From Nitrospira tepida (GTDB taxonomy: Bacteria; Nitrospirota; Nitrospiria; Nitrospirales; Nitrospiraceae): 64,000 nt of DNA. The translations under genes were made by a program, and so were the position numbers. Where the stretch lies: contig NZ_OX365700.1 in NCBI RefSeq assembly GCF_947241125.1, forward strand, positions 1,116,001 through 1,180,000, written 5' to 3'. Positions 18,755 through 28,105 of this stretch are shown here, in pieces. Position 1 is the stretch's first letter; each line of letters begins with the position of its first letter. Under the pieces are notes generated by a model. That model did no database searches. It was not told the origin of the DNA and was given only the letters and a program-made list of their open reading frames with translations.

Positions 18755-20341
18755 ATGGACATTCACGTTTTACAACAGGTCGTGCATAAGACGAGAGACG
18801 CTCGTCGCAAACAGACCCTCCCCAAGCTGTCGCTCGCCGAACGCGACACCCTGATCAAGAAGTATCATCCGGATTTTCGTGAGCACGCCTACCGGACGAT
18901 TCGATTCGGACCGAACGCCGGCGACAAGACCGTCGTCGAGCTGGCCGCCTTGCTCGAAGGGATGAGCCAGGTGCCCGACGATTTAGACCTGACGCCCTCC
19001 TATGTGACCGACGTGCTGGTGGTCGGCGGCGGGGGAGCCGGGTGCGCGGCCGCGCTGCATGCCCATGCGGCCGGGGCCAAGGTGATCCTGGCGACGAAGC
19101 TGCGACTCGGCGATTCGAACAGCGTCATGGCCCAGGGCGGCATGCAGATTTCCGTGGCCCCTGAAGATTCGCCGGTGACGCACTTCCTCGACACCCTCAA
19201 GGGCGGGCTGATGCACAACGACCATCAGTTGCTCAAGGTGATGGTCGAGGAGGGCCCCGCCATCGCCGACTGGCTGATCAAGCTGGGCGTGCTGTTCGAC
19301 CGGGACCAGGACGGGAATCTGCACGTCAAGAAGGGCGGCGGCAGCTCCAAGCCCCGCCTGCTGACCTGCTCCGACTACACCGGCCTTGAAATCATGCGGG
19401 TGCTCAAGGACGAGGTGCTGAATCAGAAGATTCAGTTGCTGGAGTTTTGCGCCGCGGTCGAATTGCTGAGCGACGATCAGGGCCGTTGCACGGGCGCGGT
19501 ATTCAAGGACCTCGACAACGGGCGGTTCGTCGTGGTGTCGGCCAAGGCGGTGATTCTCGCCACCGGCGGCATCGGCCGGCTGCACATCCAAGGGTTTCCG
19601 ACGAGCAATCATTTCGGCGCGACGGGAGACGGCTTGTGCCTGGCCTATCGGATGGGCGCGAAGCTCGTCCACATCGACACCTTCCAGTACCATCCCTCCG
19701 GCGCCGTCTATCCCGAACAGCTCATCGGCGCGCTGGTCACGGAAGGGATCCGCTCGGAGGGCGGCCACCTTGTCAATGCCAAAGGCGATCGATTCGTCAA
19801 CGAACTCGACACGCGAGATGTAGTCTCGTCTTCGATCATCAGGGAATGCGAGGAGGGACGGGGCATCAGGACCATGGCCGGGCGAGTCGGGGTATGGCTC
19901 GACACGCCGCTGCTGGACGTGGAACATGGGCCTGGGACGGTGCAGAAGCATTTTCCCGCCATGGTCAGGCAGTTCGAACGGTTCGGCATCGATATCAGCA
20001 AGGACCCCGTGTTGATCTATCCGACGCTGCACTATCAAAACGGAGGCGTGAAGATCGATACCAATGCCGAAACGGGGATCGCCAATCTTTTTGTTGCTGG
20101 CGAAGCCTCTGGCGGACTGCACGGGCGCAATCGACTGATGGGCAATTCCTTGCTGGATCTGATGGTTTTCGGAAAACGATCCGGGCTGACCGCGGCTGCA
20201 CGCGCACAATCGATGTCGTATGGGAAGCTCACCTTGCATCATGTGCGGCGCTTCCGCGACGAGGCGAGGAAACACGGGGTGCCGTCGAGCGAGGTTGTGT
20301 CCCCCATGATTCTGCCCGCATACGCGAGGAAAGTCGTCTAG
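18755..20341 (+). CDS. frdA: Fumarate reductase/succinate dehydrogenase-type flavoprotein subunit
   Basis: A 528-aa FAD-dependent subunit of the fumarate reductase/L-aspartate oxidase superfamily. After a helical N-terminus of about 80 residues the Rossmann motif VVGGGGAGCAAALHA begins near residue 89. The stretch SNSVMAQGG (121-129) lies where SdhA/FrdA carry the His that binds FAD covalently, and that His is missing. Further signatures are ATGGIGRLH, YHPSGAVYPEQLIG, a TEGIRSEGG active-site block, TLHYQNGGVKID and GLHGRNRLMGNSLLDL. ATG 18755 is chosen; a TTG at 18737 is in frame. It is 105 bp after the Fe-S subunit and 63 bp before sucC. Confidence 0.87.
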   Translation: MDIHVLQQVVHKTRDARRKQTLPKLSLAERDTLIKKYHPDFREHAYRTIRFGPNAGDKTVVELAALLEGMSQVPDDLDLTPSYVTDVLVVGGGGAGCAAALHAHAAGAKVILATKLRLGDSNSVMAQGGMQISVAPEDSPVTHFLDTLKGGLMHNDHQLLKVMVEEGPAIADWLIKLGVLFDRDQDGNLHVKKGGGSSKPRLLTCSDYTGLEIMRVLKDEVLNQKIQLLEFCAAVELLSDDQGRCTGAVFKDLDNGRFVVVSAKAVILATGGIGRLHIQGFPTSNHFGATGDGLCLAYRMGAKLVHIDTFQYHPSGAVYPEQLIGALVTEGIRSEGGHLVNAKGDRFVNELDTRDVVSSSIIRECEEGRGIRTMAGRVGVWLDTPLLDVEHGPGTVQKHFPAMVRQFERFGIDISKDPVLIYPTLHYQNGGVKIDTNAETGIANLFVAGEASGGLHGRNRLMGNSLLDLMVFGKRSGLTAAARAQSMSYGKLTLHHVRRFRDEARKHGVPSSEVVSPMILPAYARKVV

Positions 20342-20404
20342 GCGAGGCTCAGTCTCCAGCCCTCCCGACTCTGTCCTGAAGCGGGAGAAGATAGAAGGAG
20401 CGAC

Positions 20405-21583
20405 ATGAACGTTCACGAGTTTCAAGCCAAGCAGTTGTTCGCACAATTCGGGGTGCCGGTCTTGCGCGGCAAGGAAGTCAAAACTCCGAAGGCTGCAAGT
20501 CAGTGGGCCGCCAAACTCAACACCCCGGTCTATGTCGTGAAGGCGCAGATCCATGCAGGCGGGCGAGGCAAAGCCGGCGGCGTCAAATTGGTGAAGGAGC
20601 AGAGCCAGGTCCCCGAGATCGCGAAGGAACTGTTGGGCAAGGTCTTGGTCACGCACCAGACGGGGCCGAAGGGCCGCAAGGTCAGGCGCTTGCTGGTCGA
20701 GGAAGGAGCCAATATCGCCAAGGAATTGTATCTCAGCCTTCTGGTCGATCGCGACACGGGCTGGGTAGTCTTTATCGCCAGCACGGAAGGCGGGATGGAG
20801 ATCGAGGAGGTAGCTGCCAAGACGCCCGAGAAGATCATCAAGGAGGCGATCGATCCGGCCGTCGGTTATCAAGGGTACAACGGCCGCAACATCGCCTTTG
20901 CGTTGGGGCTCCAGCAGATCGAGCCGGCCGTCATCAATCCCTTCGTCCAGATGCTGGGGAATCTCTACCGGCTGTTCATGGAGAAGAATTGCGCCCTGGT
21001 GGAGATCAACCCGCTGGTCATCACGAAGGAAAAGACGCTCATCGCGCTGGACGGCAAGGTGTCCTTTGACGACAACGGGCTCTTCAAGCATGCGGACGTG
21101 CAGAAGATGCGCGATTTGCACGAGGAGGAGCCGCTGGAGATCGAAGCCGGGAAGAACAACCTCAACTACGTCAAGCTGGACGGGAATATCGGCTGCATGG
21201 TGAACGGAGCCGGCCTGGCCATGGCGACGATGGACGTCATCAAGCTGGCGGGCAGCGAACCGGCCAATTTTTTGGATGTCGGCGGCGGGGCCACGAAAGA
21301 GACCGTGGCGGCGGGGTTCCGCATCCTGCTCAAGGACAAGAATGTGAAGGGCATCTTCATCAACATCTTCGGCGGAATCGTCCGCTGCGAGCGGATTGCG
21401 CATGGGGTGATCGAAGCGGCCAAAGAGGTCAAGCTCAAGGTGCCCCTGGTGGTGAGATTGCAAGGAACCAATGCGGAAGAAGGCCGCAAGCTGTTGGTGG
21501 AGTCCGGTCTGAAGCTGGACGTGGCGGACGATTTGTGGGAGGCGGCGCAGAAGATCGTGGGGATGACCGGAAAGGCGGCGTAG
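20405..21583 (+). CDS. sucC: Succinyl-CoA synthetase (ADP-forming), beta subunit
   Basis: A 392-aa ATP-grasp subunit that with SucD forms succinyl-CoA from succinate, CoA and ATP, feeding the ferredoxin-linked carboxylation in the reverse TCA cycle. MNVHEFQAKQLFAQFGVPVLRG is the classic start. VVKAQIHAGGRGKAGGVKL (nucleotide binding), LVEINPLVITKE (metal/ATP) and DVGGGATKETV, IFGGIVRCERIA (CoA-ligase part) are all intact. Length is normal. A good AGAAGGAG site precedes the ATG. Unusually, sucD does not follow directly: 262 bp of non-coding DNA and an unrelated gene lie between. Confidence 0.95.
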   Translation: MNVHEFQAKQLFAQFGVPVLRGKEVKTPKAASQWAAKLNTPVYVVKAQIHAGGRGKAGGVKLVKEQSQVPEIAKELLGKVLVTHQTGPKGRKVRRLLVEEGANIAKELYLSLLVDRDTGWVVFIASTEGGMEIEEVAAKTPEKIIKEAIDPAVGYQGYNGRNIAFALGLQQIEPAVINPFVQMLGNLYRLFMEKNCALVEINPLVITKEKTLIALDGKVSFDDNGLFKHADVQKMRDLHEEEPLEIEAGKNNLNYVKLDGNIGCMVNGAGLAMATMDVIKLAGSEPANFLDVGGGATKETVAAGFRILLKDKNVKGIFINIFGGIVRCERIAHGVIEAAKEVKLKVPLVVRLQGTNAEEGRKLLVESGLKLDVADDLWEAAQKIVGMTGKAA

Positions 21584-21845
21584 GGGACGGCGTAAGCCGC
21601 CGCTCGCTTTCACACCTCTCGGAGCGACCCTTCCGGGCTCGTCCGAGCGGAAGCCTTCCGAAATTCCCTCGCGGACTCGGTCAGTTTCCGCTTTCCTTCT
21701 CGGCCGAGCCTCGGTGGGTCCCCGCTCCTCCGGCAAAGTCGCTCGCGGTAGCCTGCGCCGTCCCGCCAGGAAAGTGGGATAGGGGAAAAGGTACAAGGAC
21801 TGCAGAGCCCGAGCATCTGCGGAGGTAGCGACTGCAGGTCAGGCC
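21584..21845. other. Non-coding spacer downstream of sucC
   Basis: A 262-bp GC-rich stretch with no convincing gene. GGGACGGCG just after the sucC stop pairs with CGCCGTCCC near 21754-21762, giving a long-range inverted repeat. The pieces CTCGGTC, CTCGGCCGAG and CCTCGGTGGG give further local pairing potential. No insertion-sequence ends are recognisable. Confidence 0.4.
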
Positions 21846-22370
21846 ATGCCGAGGTTGAAAATGGTAACGGCTTCGCAGTGGTATAGCGAATTCTACAAGG
21901 CCTATTACAAGGATGGAAAAATCCAGGCTTTAGAAAACAAGACAAAGCTCACGGATTCTCAGTGGACTGACGGCTTCCGGGAGTTCTTGAGAAGACTTGC
22001 CGGGAGTCTTGGGTATGAAGTCGTTACAGAGCATAAGGCTCATGGTGGCCAGCGATTTGACCAAACATGGTCTAAGCCCGGTGAGACAATAGCGATCGAA
22101 TACGAGAATGATTACACCACGATACTTTCGGAAGTAAAAAAGCTTTGCTCCACTAATAGCCGCTTGAGAGTCCTAATTACTTACTGCCCTGAAAGAAACT
22201 TCCTTTCCGAGATCTTGAACATTGCGCAACACACCATTGCTCCAGAAATTGATAAGAGGTTGGGAGACTTTAGCGGTGAATTTCTGCTGATAGCGGGAGG
22301 CTACGAGTGGAATGACTGGTCGGCAATTCGAATGGTTTTGAAGGCGCAGCTAGACCCCATTCGTCTTTAG
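21846..22370 (+). CDS. Hypothetical protein inserted between sucC and sucD (possible nuclease-like fold)
   Basis: A 174-aa protein I do not recognise. Codon choice is visibly more AT-ending than in the flanking genes (for example GAA, AAA, ATA and CTT/TTA rich), suggesting horizontal acquisition. The order of conserved-looking residues, Glu in YEVVTEHK, RFDQTW, then IAIEYEND followed by a hydrophobic strand LRVLITY, resembles a PD-(D/E)xK nuclease-like core, but this is a weak fold guess. There are no signal peptide or membrane segments. The stop is 15 bp before the sucD ATG, so sucD is probably translated from the same transcript. A second ATG at 21861 could be the true start. Confidence 0.7.
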   Translation: MPRLKMVTASQWYSEFYKAYYKDGKIQALENKTKLTDSQWTDGFREFLRRLAGSLGYEVVTEHKAHGGQRFDQTWSKPGETIAIEYENDYTTILSEVKKLCSTNSRLRVLITYCPERNFLSEILNIAQHTIAPEIDKRLGDFSGEFLLIAGGYEWNDWSAIRMVLKAQLDPIRL

Positions 22371-22385
22371 GGATAAGAGGGATAA

Positions 22386-23258
22386 ATGAGCATTCTCGTC
22401 AACAAGAATACGCGGGTGGTGGTGCAGGGGATCACGGGCAAGGAAGGCTCGTTCCACGCGACGCAGTGCAAGGCCTACGGCACGCAGGTAGTCGCCGGTG
22501 TGACGCCGGGAAAGGCCGGCCAGCAGGTCGAGGGGATTCCGGTCTTCAACACGGTACGCGAAGCCGTCAAACATACCCAGTGCGACACCTCGCTGATTTT
22601 CGTGCCTCCGCCGTTTGCGGCCGATGCGATACTGGAGGCAGCCGATGCCGGGATCAAGCTCATCATCTGCATCACTGAAGGCATCCCGGTGAATGACATG
22701 GTGCGGGCGAAACGGGCCTTGCGGGGCCGCGATGTCCGGCTGATCGGTCCCAACTGCCCTGGCATCATCACGGTGGATGAGGCCAAGATCGGCATCATGC
22801 CGGGGTTCATCCATAAGCGAGGCGTGGTCGGGGTGGTCTCGCGCAGCGGCACCCTCACCTATGAGGCGGTGCACCAACTCTCCACGCTCGGGCTCGGCGA
22901 AACCACCTGCGTCGGCATCGGCGGAGACCCGGTCAACGGCACCAGTTTCGTCGATGTGCTACCGCTGTTCGAAAGCGATTCCGAGACACAGGCGATCGTC
23001 ATGATCGGCGAGATCGGCGGGGATGCCGAGGAAAAGGCGGCTGAGTTCATCAAGAAAAACGTGAAGAAGCCGGTGGTCAGCTTCATTGCCGGCATCACGG
23101 CGCCGCCGGGCCGCCGCATGGGCCATGCCGGGGCGATCATCAGCGGAGGCAAGGGGACGGCCTCCGAAAAGATGAAAGCGCTTGAAGCAGCCGGCGTGCG
23201 GGTGGTGAAGAATCCAGCCGAAATCGGCGCCACCGTGAAAACCGCGCTCGGGCGGTGA
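22386..23258 (+). CDS. sucD: Succinyl-CoA synthetase (ADP-forming), alpha subunit
   Basis: A 290-aa CoA-binding subunit. The N-terminal Rossmann part begins [21 protein letters not shown] and contains TEGIPVNDM and [20 protein letters not shown]. The phosphohistidine lies in [18 protein letters not shown]. Length matches family norm (about 290). It would pair with SucC encoded 803 bp upstream; the ATG has an AAGAGGG ribosome binding site placed in the 15-bp gap after the intervening gene. It is the last gene of the carbon-fixation block; a 265-bp gap follows. Confidence 0.95.
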
Positions 23259-26728: not shown

Positions 26729-28105
26729 GAGGTATAACCAGAAGGTGTGGAAATAGGAAGAGGGCGGTGGCAACCTTTCGGGTGATCAAACCCACCGGGC
26801 CGAGGCCCGGCCAAGAAAGGAGACACCGCCGTGAAGGAGCAGAGCACAGGGACCGACGTCGAGTCAAGGAGTCTATGGGACCATCTGGAGGAATTTGTGC
26901 GCGGCCACATCCAGCAGTTCGTCCAACGGCTGTTAGTGGAAGACGTCACGATGCGACTTGGCCGGGCGAAGTCGGCGCGGCGGACTCACGTGGATGCGCC
27001 GGACGGGTATCGCAACGGGTATGGCAAGCCGCGGAAGGTGACGCTCACCTGCGGCACGATCACCCTGCAGCGGCCGAGGGTGCGGAGGCTCGCGGAGCGC
27101 TTCGTCAGTCGGATCCTGCCGCTCTTCAAGCGACACACGAAGCAGGTGGGCGAGCTGCTGCCCCAGTTGTATCTGCACGGCTTGGCCCTCGGGGATTTCG
27201 AGTTGGCGTTGCGTGGGCTAATGGGCGAGAGCGCCCCCTTGTCCCCCGCCTCGCTCCAACGACTCAAGGCGCAGTGGAAGGTCGAGTATGAAGCCTGGAC
27301 GCGGCGACGACTCGATGACCTGGAGGTCGTGTACGTGTGGGCGGATGGGTTGTATGTGAAGGCGGGGCTGGAGGCGAGCAAGGCGGCGCTGCTGATCCTG
27401 ATCGGAGCGCTGACGGATGGCCGCAAAGTCGTCTTGGCCGTGGAGAGCGGGCAACGCGAATCGAAGGAGTCATGGGGCGCGGTGTTGCGGGATCTGCGGA
27501 TGCGGGGGCTGAAACCATGGCGCTGCACCATTGCCGATGGCCATTTGGGGATTTGGGCGGCGCTGGCGGAGCAACAGCCCACGGCCGCCGAACAGCGGTG
27601 TTGGAACCATCGGCTTGTCAATGTGTTGGATGCCATCCCGAAGCCCCACCAGGCCGAGGCAAGCACCTGGCTCAAGACCCTGCCGTATGCGGAGACGCAG
27701 GCAGCCTGTGAGCGGTTACGCGATCAATTTAGCCGCCGGTACCGCGCGCTGGCCCCGAAGGCGGTCGAACGGCTCCATCATGATTGGGAGCGGCTCATCA
27801 CCTTTTACCAGTTCCCCAAGGAACACTGGCGCCATCTGCGCACGACGAACGTGGTCGAGTCTCCCTTCGCCGCGGTGCGGCTTCGGACCGCGGCCGGCAA
27901 GCGGTTTAAACGCATCGAGTCAGCGACGGCGTTGATCTGGAAAGTCTTACAAGTCGCGGAACAGACGTTCCGACGCCTGAATGCGCCGGAGCTGCTACCG
28001 ACTGTATATGCCGGCACTCGCTATGTCGATGGAGTGAAGCAGGCCACTGTCGCCCACGAGGATGTCGCCGCCTGATTCCATTTACACACCTATTGACAAG
28101 ACCTC
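26729..28105 (+). mobile_element. IS256-family insertion sequence, complete, 1377 bp
   Basis: The element runs between two identical 8-bp target duplications and carries one transposase. The terminal inverted repeats start GAGGT at both ends; over 26 bp the left end (26729-26754) and the complement of the right end (28105-28080) agree at 19 positions, including AGGTGTG and AAAT. Length and organisation fit IS256. The intact transposase frame and unmutated duplications indicate a fairly recent insertion that may still be mobile. It splits the surrounding gene in two. Confidence 0.93.
26831..28075 (+). CDS. IS256-family (Mutator-type) transposase
   Basis: A 414-aa DDE transposase. The N-terminal DNA-binding part has RNGYGKPRKVTLTCGTITLQRPRVR. 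The catalytic Asp residues are in VVYVWADGLYVKAG and CTIADGHLGIW, and the Glu in LRTTNVVESPFAAVRLRT, followed by KRFKRIESATALIWKVL. Start is a GTG at 26831 preceded by AAAGGAGACACC. The frame is full length without internal stops. The last codons overlap in another frame with an ATG at 28062 that opens the downstream gene fragment. Confidence 0.93.
   Translation: MKEQSTGTDVESRSLWDHLEEFVRGHIQQFVQRLLVEDVTMRLGRAKSARRTHVDAPDGYRNGYGKPRKVTLTCGTITLQRPRVRRLAERFVSRILPLFKRHTKQVGELLPQLYLHGLALGDFELALRGLMGESAPLSPASLQRLKAQWKVEYEAWTRRRLDDLEVVYVWADGLYVKAGLEASKAALLILIGALTDGRKVVLAVESGQRESKESWGAVLRDLRMRGLKPWRCTIADGHLGIWAALAEQQPTAAEQRCWNHRLVNVLDAIPKPHQAEASTWLKTLPYAETQAACERLRDQFSRRYRALAPKAVERLHHDWERLITFYQFPKEHWRHLRTTNVVESPFAAVRLRTAAGKRFKRIESATALIWKVLQVAEQTFRRLNAPELLPTVYAGTRYVDGVKQATVAHEDVAA

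Follow-up and report, generated by a model that had tools for sequence, protein, structure and literature searches.

The window considered here, a 64,000-nucleotide stretch of the Nitrospira tepida genome (contig NZ_OX365700.1, positions 1,116,001 to 1,180,000), carries the genes for both subunits of succinate-CoA ligase, sucC and sucD, separated by 802 bp that hold a palindromic element and one good open reading frame (ORF) on the same strand, designated gene X. The space between the two subunit genes is referred to below as the slot. Both flanking genes passed the equivalog cut-offs of NCBIfam, and the locus is organized as follows:

20405..21583, + strand: sucC, succinate-CoA ligase subunit beta, left flank of the slot (NCBIfam NF001913, 569 bits against a cut-off of 370)
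21584..21764, + strand: palindromic element of 181 bp, directly 3' of sucC (from sequence and covariation)
21765..21860, + strand: remaining spacer, ending with a GAGG ribosome-binding site before the ATG at 21861 (from sequence)
21861..22370, + strand: slot gene X, 169 amino acids (listed ORF 21846-22370, 174 amino acids; from homologue and model)
22371..22385, + strand: 15-bp gap with the sucD ribosome-binding site AAGAGGG (from sequence)
22386..23258, + strand: sucD, succinate-CoA ligase subunit alpha, right flank of the slot (NCBIfam NF004230, 474 bits against a cut-off of 336)

An earlier note on this DNA had described a foreign-looking gene separating sucC from sucD, and both the coordinates and the AT-rich composition bear this out, gene X having a GC content of 0.467 (0.54 at third codon positions, GC3) against 0.60 (0.83) for sucC and 0.63 (0.81) for sucD. 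That the stop codon of X lies 15 bp 5' of the sucD ATG, as the note had stated, is confirmed from the sequence, and cotranslation of X with sucD is plausible. The note had given the gene 174 codons and a 262-bp spacer; its presence between sucC and sucD stands, but its size does not, as the start is probably at 21861 (169 amino acids, 277-bp spacer) rather than at 21846. This start is preferred because GAGG is found 6 nt 5' of it and because the beginning of the homologue described below (MTAEEW) aligns with MVTASQW of X. Judged from these two sequences X is a real gene, since the homologue keeps the reading frame at 36% identity. The genome (a single contig of 4.73 Mb) was found to have one sucD, and thus no contiguous sucCD elsewhere; its gene content, its kinship in genome searches and the relative of X described below would place it in Nitrospirales. 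No promoter above chance and no Rfam family were found in the region, nor any terminator-like site between sucC and X.

Rather than being the unusual one-off insertion that the note had supposed, the window locus is one instance of many: across Nitrospirales, the sucC-sucD junction recurs as a slot for insertions. Among 136 loci of this order the gap between the two genes is shorter than 60 bp in 43, 60-399 bp long in 61 (with a peak near 157 bp) and 400-1562 bp long in 32. Gaps of at least 400 bp are absent from two junctions located just upstream in the same operon (0/100 and 0/120), which gives Fisher p values of 5e-9 and 3e-10, not corrected for relatedness. The presence of cargo is patchy within genera, and diverse gene content is found between the same conserved genes, as in an insertion hotspot, with the upstream junctions as controls. 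No description of the slot was found among open-licence texts on Nitrospira with sucC/sucD or an insertion hotspot, as judged by their titles and abstracts.

At least seven unrelated gene families occupy the large gaps:

Family A: lipoprotein of about 197 amino acids, 19 gaps in four genera
Family B: 177-188 amino acids
Family C: 119-124 amino acids, with a sub-threshold Mrr_N-like match
Family D: 137-157 amino acids
Lys/Glu/Arg-rich protein, in the gap of genome G037
76-amino-acid ORF, in the gap of genome G002
Family X: the window gene and its copy in genome G040

The gap of genome G186 (locus L062, 1022-1540) further carries, after a duplicated sucD start, a YafQ-type toxin gene (recognized with Pfam) preceded by an overlapping antitoxin-like ORF, and that of G310 (L134) two divergent lipoprotein A copies in tandem, with a copy of the sucC tail between them. 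In searches across the order, slot-bound copies were found in 3/3 genomes for C, 4/4 for B, 2/2 for X and 4/10 for D, so that B, C and X were found nowhere but in the slot (about 231 genomes of the order); family A is found mainly in the slot, with distant relatives at other places. The GC content of B, C, D and X is 0.45-0.48, in hosts with about 60% GC at the locus. No homologues of B and C were found in viruses or plasmids and none of D in plasmids, and no Pfam recombinase was matched among the profiled cargo (A, B, C, D, the YafQ gene, the 76-amino-acid ORF and X). Profile comparison failed to join B, D and X, and the idea of a single divergent family uniting them was set aside.

Gene X itself is rare and not general among relatives, a point that the earlier note had raised: among about 395 Nitrospirota genomes one other carrier was found, G040 (contig VBOG01000035.1, Nitrospirae bacterium isolate NS_4; E 1e-23, 36-37% identity), which belongs to a different family of the same order, NS-4 being a named family of Nitrospirales (PMC12342949). 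The G040 copy also lies between sucC and sucD, and its stop codon overlaps the sucD start. When 235 genomes of the order were searched with an alignment, no further relative with a convincing score emerged. Searches among plasmids, phages, viral contigs and contigs of GTDB genomes, in which the peptide-pattern scans are sensitive to close relatives only, returned nothing beyond the G040 contig (again, as L050).

Several gaps bear traces of how their cargo may have arrived. Duplicated flank sequence was detected in six of them (z 8-19), as copies of the sucD head in L055, L063, L110 and L062 and of the sucC tail in L134 and L165. In L055, L063 and L110 the copied sucD start lies just 5' of gene A and is followed by a short sucC-tail-like stretch; in L062 it directly follows gene B and precedes the toxin-antitoxin pair; and in L134 and L165 the copied sucC end precedes the second or only gene. 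Insertion of an entire sucC-gene-sucD allele beside the old one, anchored in sucD and illegitimately joined upstream, would be expected to leave such scars. The end of sucC and codons 15-20 of sucD share the pattern GGGGATxACxGGxAAGG, at which the joints of L055, L063, L110 and L062 are located, and short homology there may have guided the joining; the match is suggestive only, because a Smith-Waterman comparison of the sucC-end and sucD-start regions put another alignment higher. A candidate sucC-tail remnant in the window (21766-21786, 71% of 21 bases) was not significant in the scar scan. The sucC gene of G186, for its part, appears as a clear mosaic in sequence comparison: it is 95-97% identical to that of a congener until about nucleotide 590 and 76-89% identical (about 84%) thereafter, its end being nearest to that of another genus.

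The spacer of the window slot holds the palindrome listed above (21584-21764), which is imperfect, has 20-nt terminal inverted repeats (80%) and outer arms resembling the sucC end, and folds strongly as RNA (z -4.9). Counterparts with 82-89% identity directly follow sucC in G186, G189, G419, G454, G246, G024 and G413, the slot copy being the sole copy found at E 0.001 in G186, G189 and G024. In an alignment of eight slots, 11 of 54 pairs have changed on both sides yet still pair, against 3.6 in shuffles; this falls short of proving that the element functions as RNA, because the structure prediction used that very alignment and the arms of a DNA palindrome can also correct each other. The full palindrome was found in 8/14 gaps whose cargo is not limited to A and in 0/18 gaps that carry A only. 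The window genome (G000) has 10 further related places at E below 1e-4, none of them full length. The palindrome resembles repetitive extragenic palindromic (REP)-like or miniature inverted-repeat transposable element (MITE)-like repeats in that it has terminal inverted repeats and, in some species, is present more than once in the genome; unlike these, it was found in three genomes only as the slot copy and has outer arms that are sucC-end-like. One diverged copy in G000 lies within a 582-bp element (L005, 1437-2018) that has 26-bp inverted ends of ISL3-like type and for which no transposase ORF is listed, and similar ends were seen in L003, L006 and L007. A second type of long hairpin was observed in the gene-free gaps of about 157 bp (L038, L018, L030, L061, L076 and about 35 others), with the core GTGCTCGCxxACGCGC...GTGCTCGxTGxATGCGCGCAGT and outer arms that vary between genera and look complementary by eye.

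The protein encoded by X is, as the note had it, of no known family, having no above-cut-off match in Pfam, NCBIfam, PADLOC or PHROGs and no match among PDB sequences. Its AlphaFold2 model, built from a two-sequence input and on the whole of fair confidence (predicted local distance difference test 78, predicted template modelling score 0.80), comprises a helix (residues 32-49), three strands (53-60, 65-72, 75-82), a second helix (85-96) and a fourth strand (102-109). Compared by VIA-align, in which a Z below 8 possibly reflects a mere common arrangement, the model matches BglII, BamHI, PaqCI, YaeQ and XisH at Z 5-7 (BglII: Z 7.3 over 139 residues, root-mean-square deviation 4.4; BamHI: Z 6.2), so that the best score against the alpha-beta-beta-beta-alpha-beta core of PD-(D/E)XK enzymes, 7.3, falls below the clear level. 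The same list contains the RNA-polymerase subunit Rpb5 and the central domains of acetyl-CoA carboxylase. The latter, level with BglII there and at the top of the Foldseek list, were discounted as a guide to function because the sequences are 5-13% identical and the domain concerned is not known to be catalytic. What the best matches have in common is a restriction-endonuclease-like fold.

X thus shares a fold match with the type II restriction endonucleases BglII and BamHI, which have the PD-(D/E)XK fold, but unlike them it has no methylase partner in its slot, and sequence identity is 7-12%. Residues D67, E80 and E82 (numbered from M21861) form a possible acidic D...ExE site, an arrangement like that of BamHI; a lysine is missing from the place expected for a PD-(D/E)XK site, and the homologue has E, N and E, departing from X at two of the three positions, for which reason a nuclease role is a lead and not a result. 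The possible nuclease-like core of the earlier note draws weak structural support from the model, and a catalytic triad is not conserved. Most likely X is a small accessory protein with a predicted restriction-endonuclease-like fold; it might act in defence or as a selfish element, either by cutting nucleic acid or by binding DNA.

Two other frames in the window deserve mention. A 937-amino-acid open frame (18983-21796, - strand) runs antisense to a flavin adenine dinucleotide (FAD) protein gene and sucC and is probably an artefact of high GC3, and a 414-amino-acid ORF (26831-28075, + strand) looks by eye like an IS256/mutator-type transposase.

It seems reasonably probable that the slot is a site of exchange within the operon, fed by recombination at sucC and sucD and sometimes stacking two alleles. 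Short promoterless genes would be housed at the junction of sucC with sucD and be swapped between Nitrospirales species through homologous recombination in the highly conserved sucC/sucD flanks. Occasionally an incoming sucC-gene-sucD allele would be added while the old one is retained, and a second sucD start or sucC end would stay behind. In the window slot a palindrome is followed by X, which would be expressed from the sucC-sucD message. The analysis establishes that the slot recurs, that its cargo is diverse and includes slot-bound families, that scars and one mosaic sucC exist and that the palindrome is conserved. We infer exchange as the main route, as we do cotranscription and the fold and role of X; homologous recombination in the flanks would agree with published models of hotspots and of stacking (PMC5635113, PMC5361080). 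Several points weigh against this reading. Recombination accounts for exchange and not for the first arrival of unrelated genes. A recent transfer of X between the window and G040 lineages is excluded in sequence comparison, because X is 36% identical between them while the flanks are 83% identical, and the scar scan shows no scar in the window gap or in L010. A general test of mosaicism at the 3' end of sucC is weak and only suggestive (13/38 pairs whose gaps differ, against 8/50 whose gaps are alike; p 0.04, the pairs being non-independent), and the structural matches of the X model, all below Z 8, may reflect only a common arrangement.

Among the alternatives, one or more ancestral genes could have resided at the junction and been lost in most lineages, the survivors having a function linked to succinyl-CoA ligase. 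The confinement of B, C and X to the slot, the overlap of X with the sucD start in L010 and the presence of lipoprotein A in 19 loci of four genera would all fit such old residents, but at least seven unrelated families share the one slot, B, C, D and the window X are foreign in composition, cargo is patchy within genera, the scars speak for whole-allele addition and one sucC is mosaic, so that we regard this explanation as unlikely. The palindrome could instead be a transposon-like or recombination site that captures genes, as its terminal inverted repeats, its bias towards gaps with other cargo (8/14 against 0/18 with A alone) and the related repeats elsewhere in the genome, at least one of them inside the 582-bp element with ISL3-like ends, might suggest. 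This appears distinctly improbable, as none of the gaps showed a recognizable recombinase, B, X, D and F are also found where the full palindrome is absent, and B, C and X are restricted to the slot, though a mobile element should land elsewhere too. A dedicated capture site, at which the palindrome or the GGGGATxACxGGxAAGG stretches would serve as recombination sites for a pool of small-gene cassettes specific to nitrifying bacteria, is in our view very unlikely; if true, it would tie the cargo to two genes that carbon fixation should require. Finally, the junction could be a permissive spot that needs no translational coupling and tolerates random insertions, with nothing special about exchange. 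Gene-free gaps of about 157 bp are indeed common, but the recurrence of the same cargo families at the slot in different genera and the scars of whole-allele addition make this explanation highly improbable.

The reading we favour, exchange through the flanks, has parallels in known systems. As is the case for gene-transfer hotspots (PMC5635113), the slot holds diverse genes with fast turnover between two conserved core genes, with no recognized integrases and with recombination signals in a flank; unlike them, it sits between two subunit genes of one enzyme and holds 1-3 small genes. A second parallel is provided by stacked effector-immunity arrays in Vibrio cholerae, for which homology-facilitated illegitimate recombination has been given as the explanation: there too a single anchor is homologous, insertion is additive and remnants of gene ends persist as scars (PMC5361080). 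Unlike those arrays, the slot is flanked by core metabolic genes and its cargo consists of mixed orphan genes, not of known toxin-immunity pairs, except for the antitoxin-YafQ pair of G186.

New genes are thought to avoid operon interiors and to join at the edges (PMC5635113). By contrast, the junction between the subunit genes of an enzyme of the CO2-fixation cycle, Nitrospirales fixing CO2 via the reverse tricarboxylic acid cycle (PMC12342949), has here been reused many times for insertion, and by small families that are almost absent elsewhere in the order. The slot thus offers a compact, countable system for the entry of foreign genes into an operon, for the stacking and decay of alleles and for the tolerance of such insertions by a two-subunit enzyme. 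It may also lead to genes of defence-like or regulatory kind that have so far gone unstudied in nitrite-oxidizing and comammox bacteria, organisms that are hard to handle genetically.
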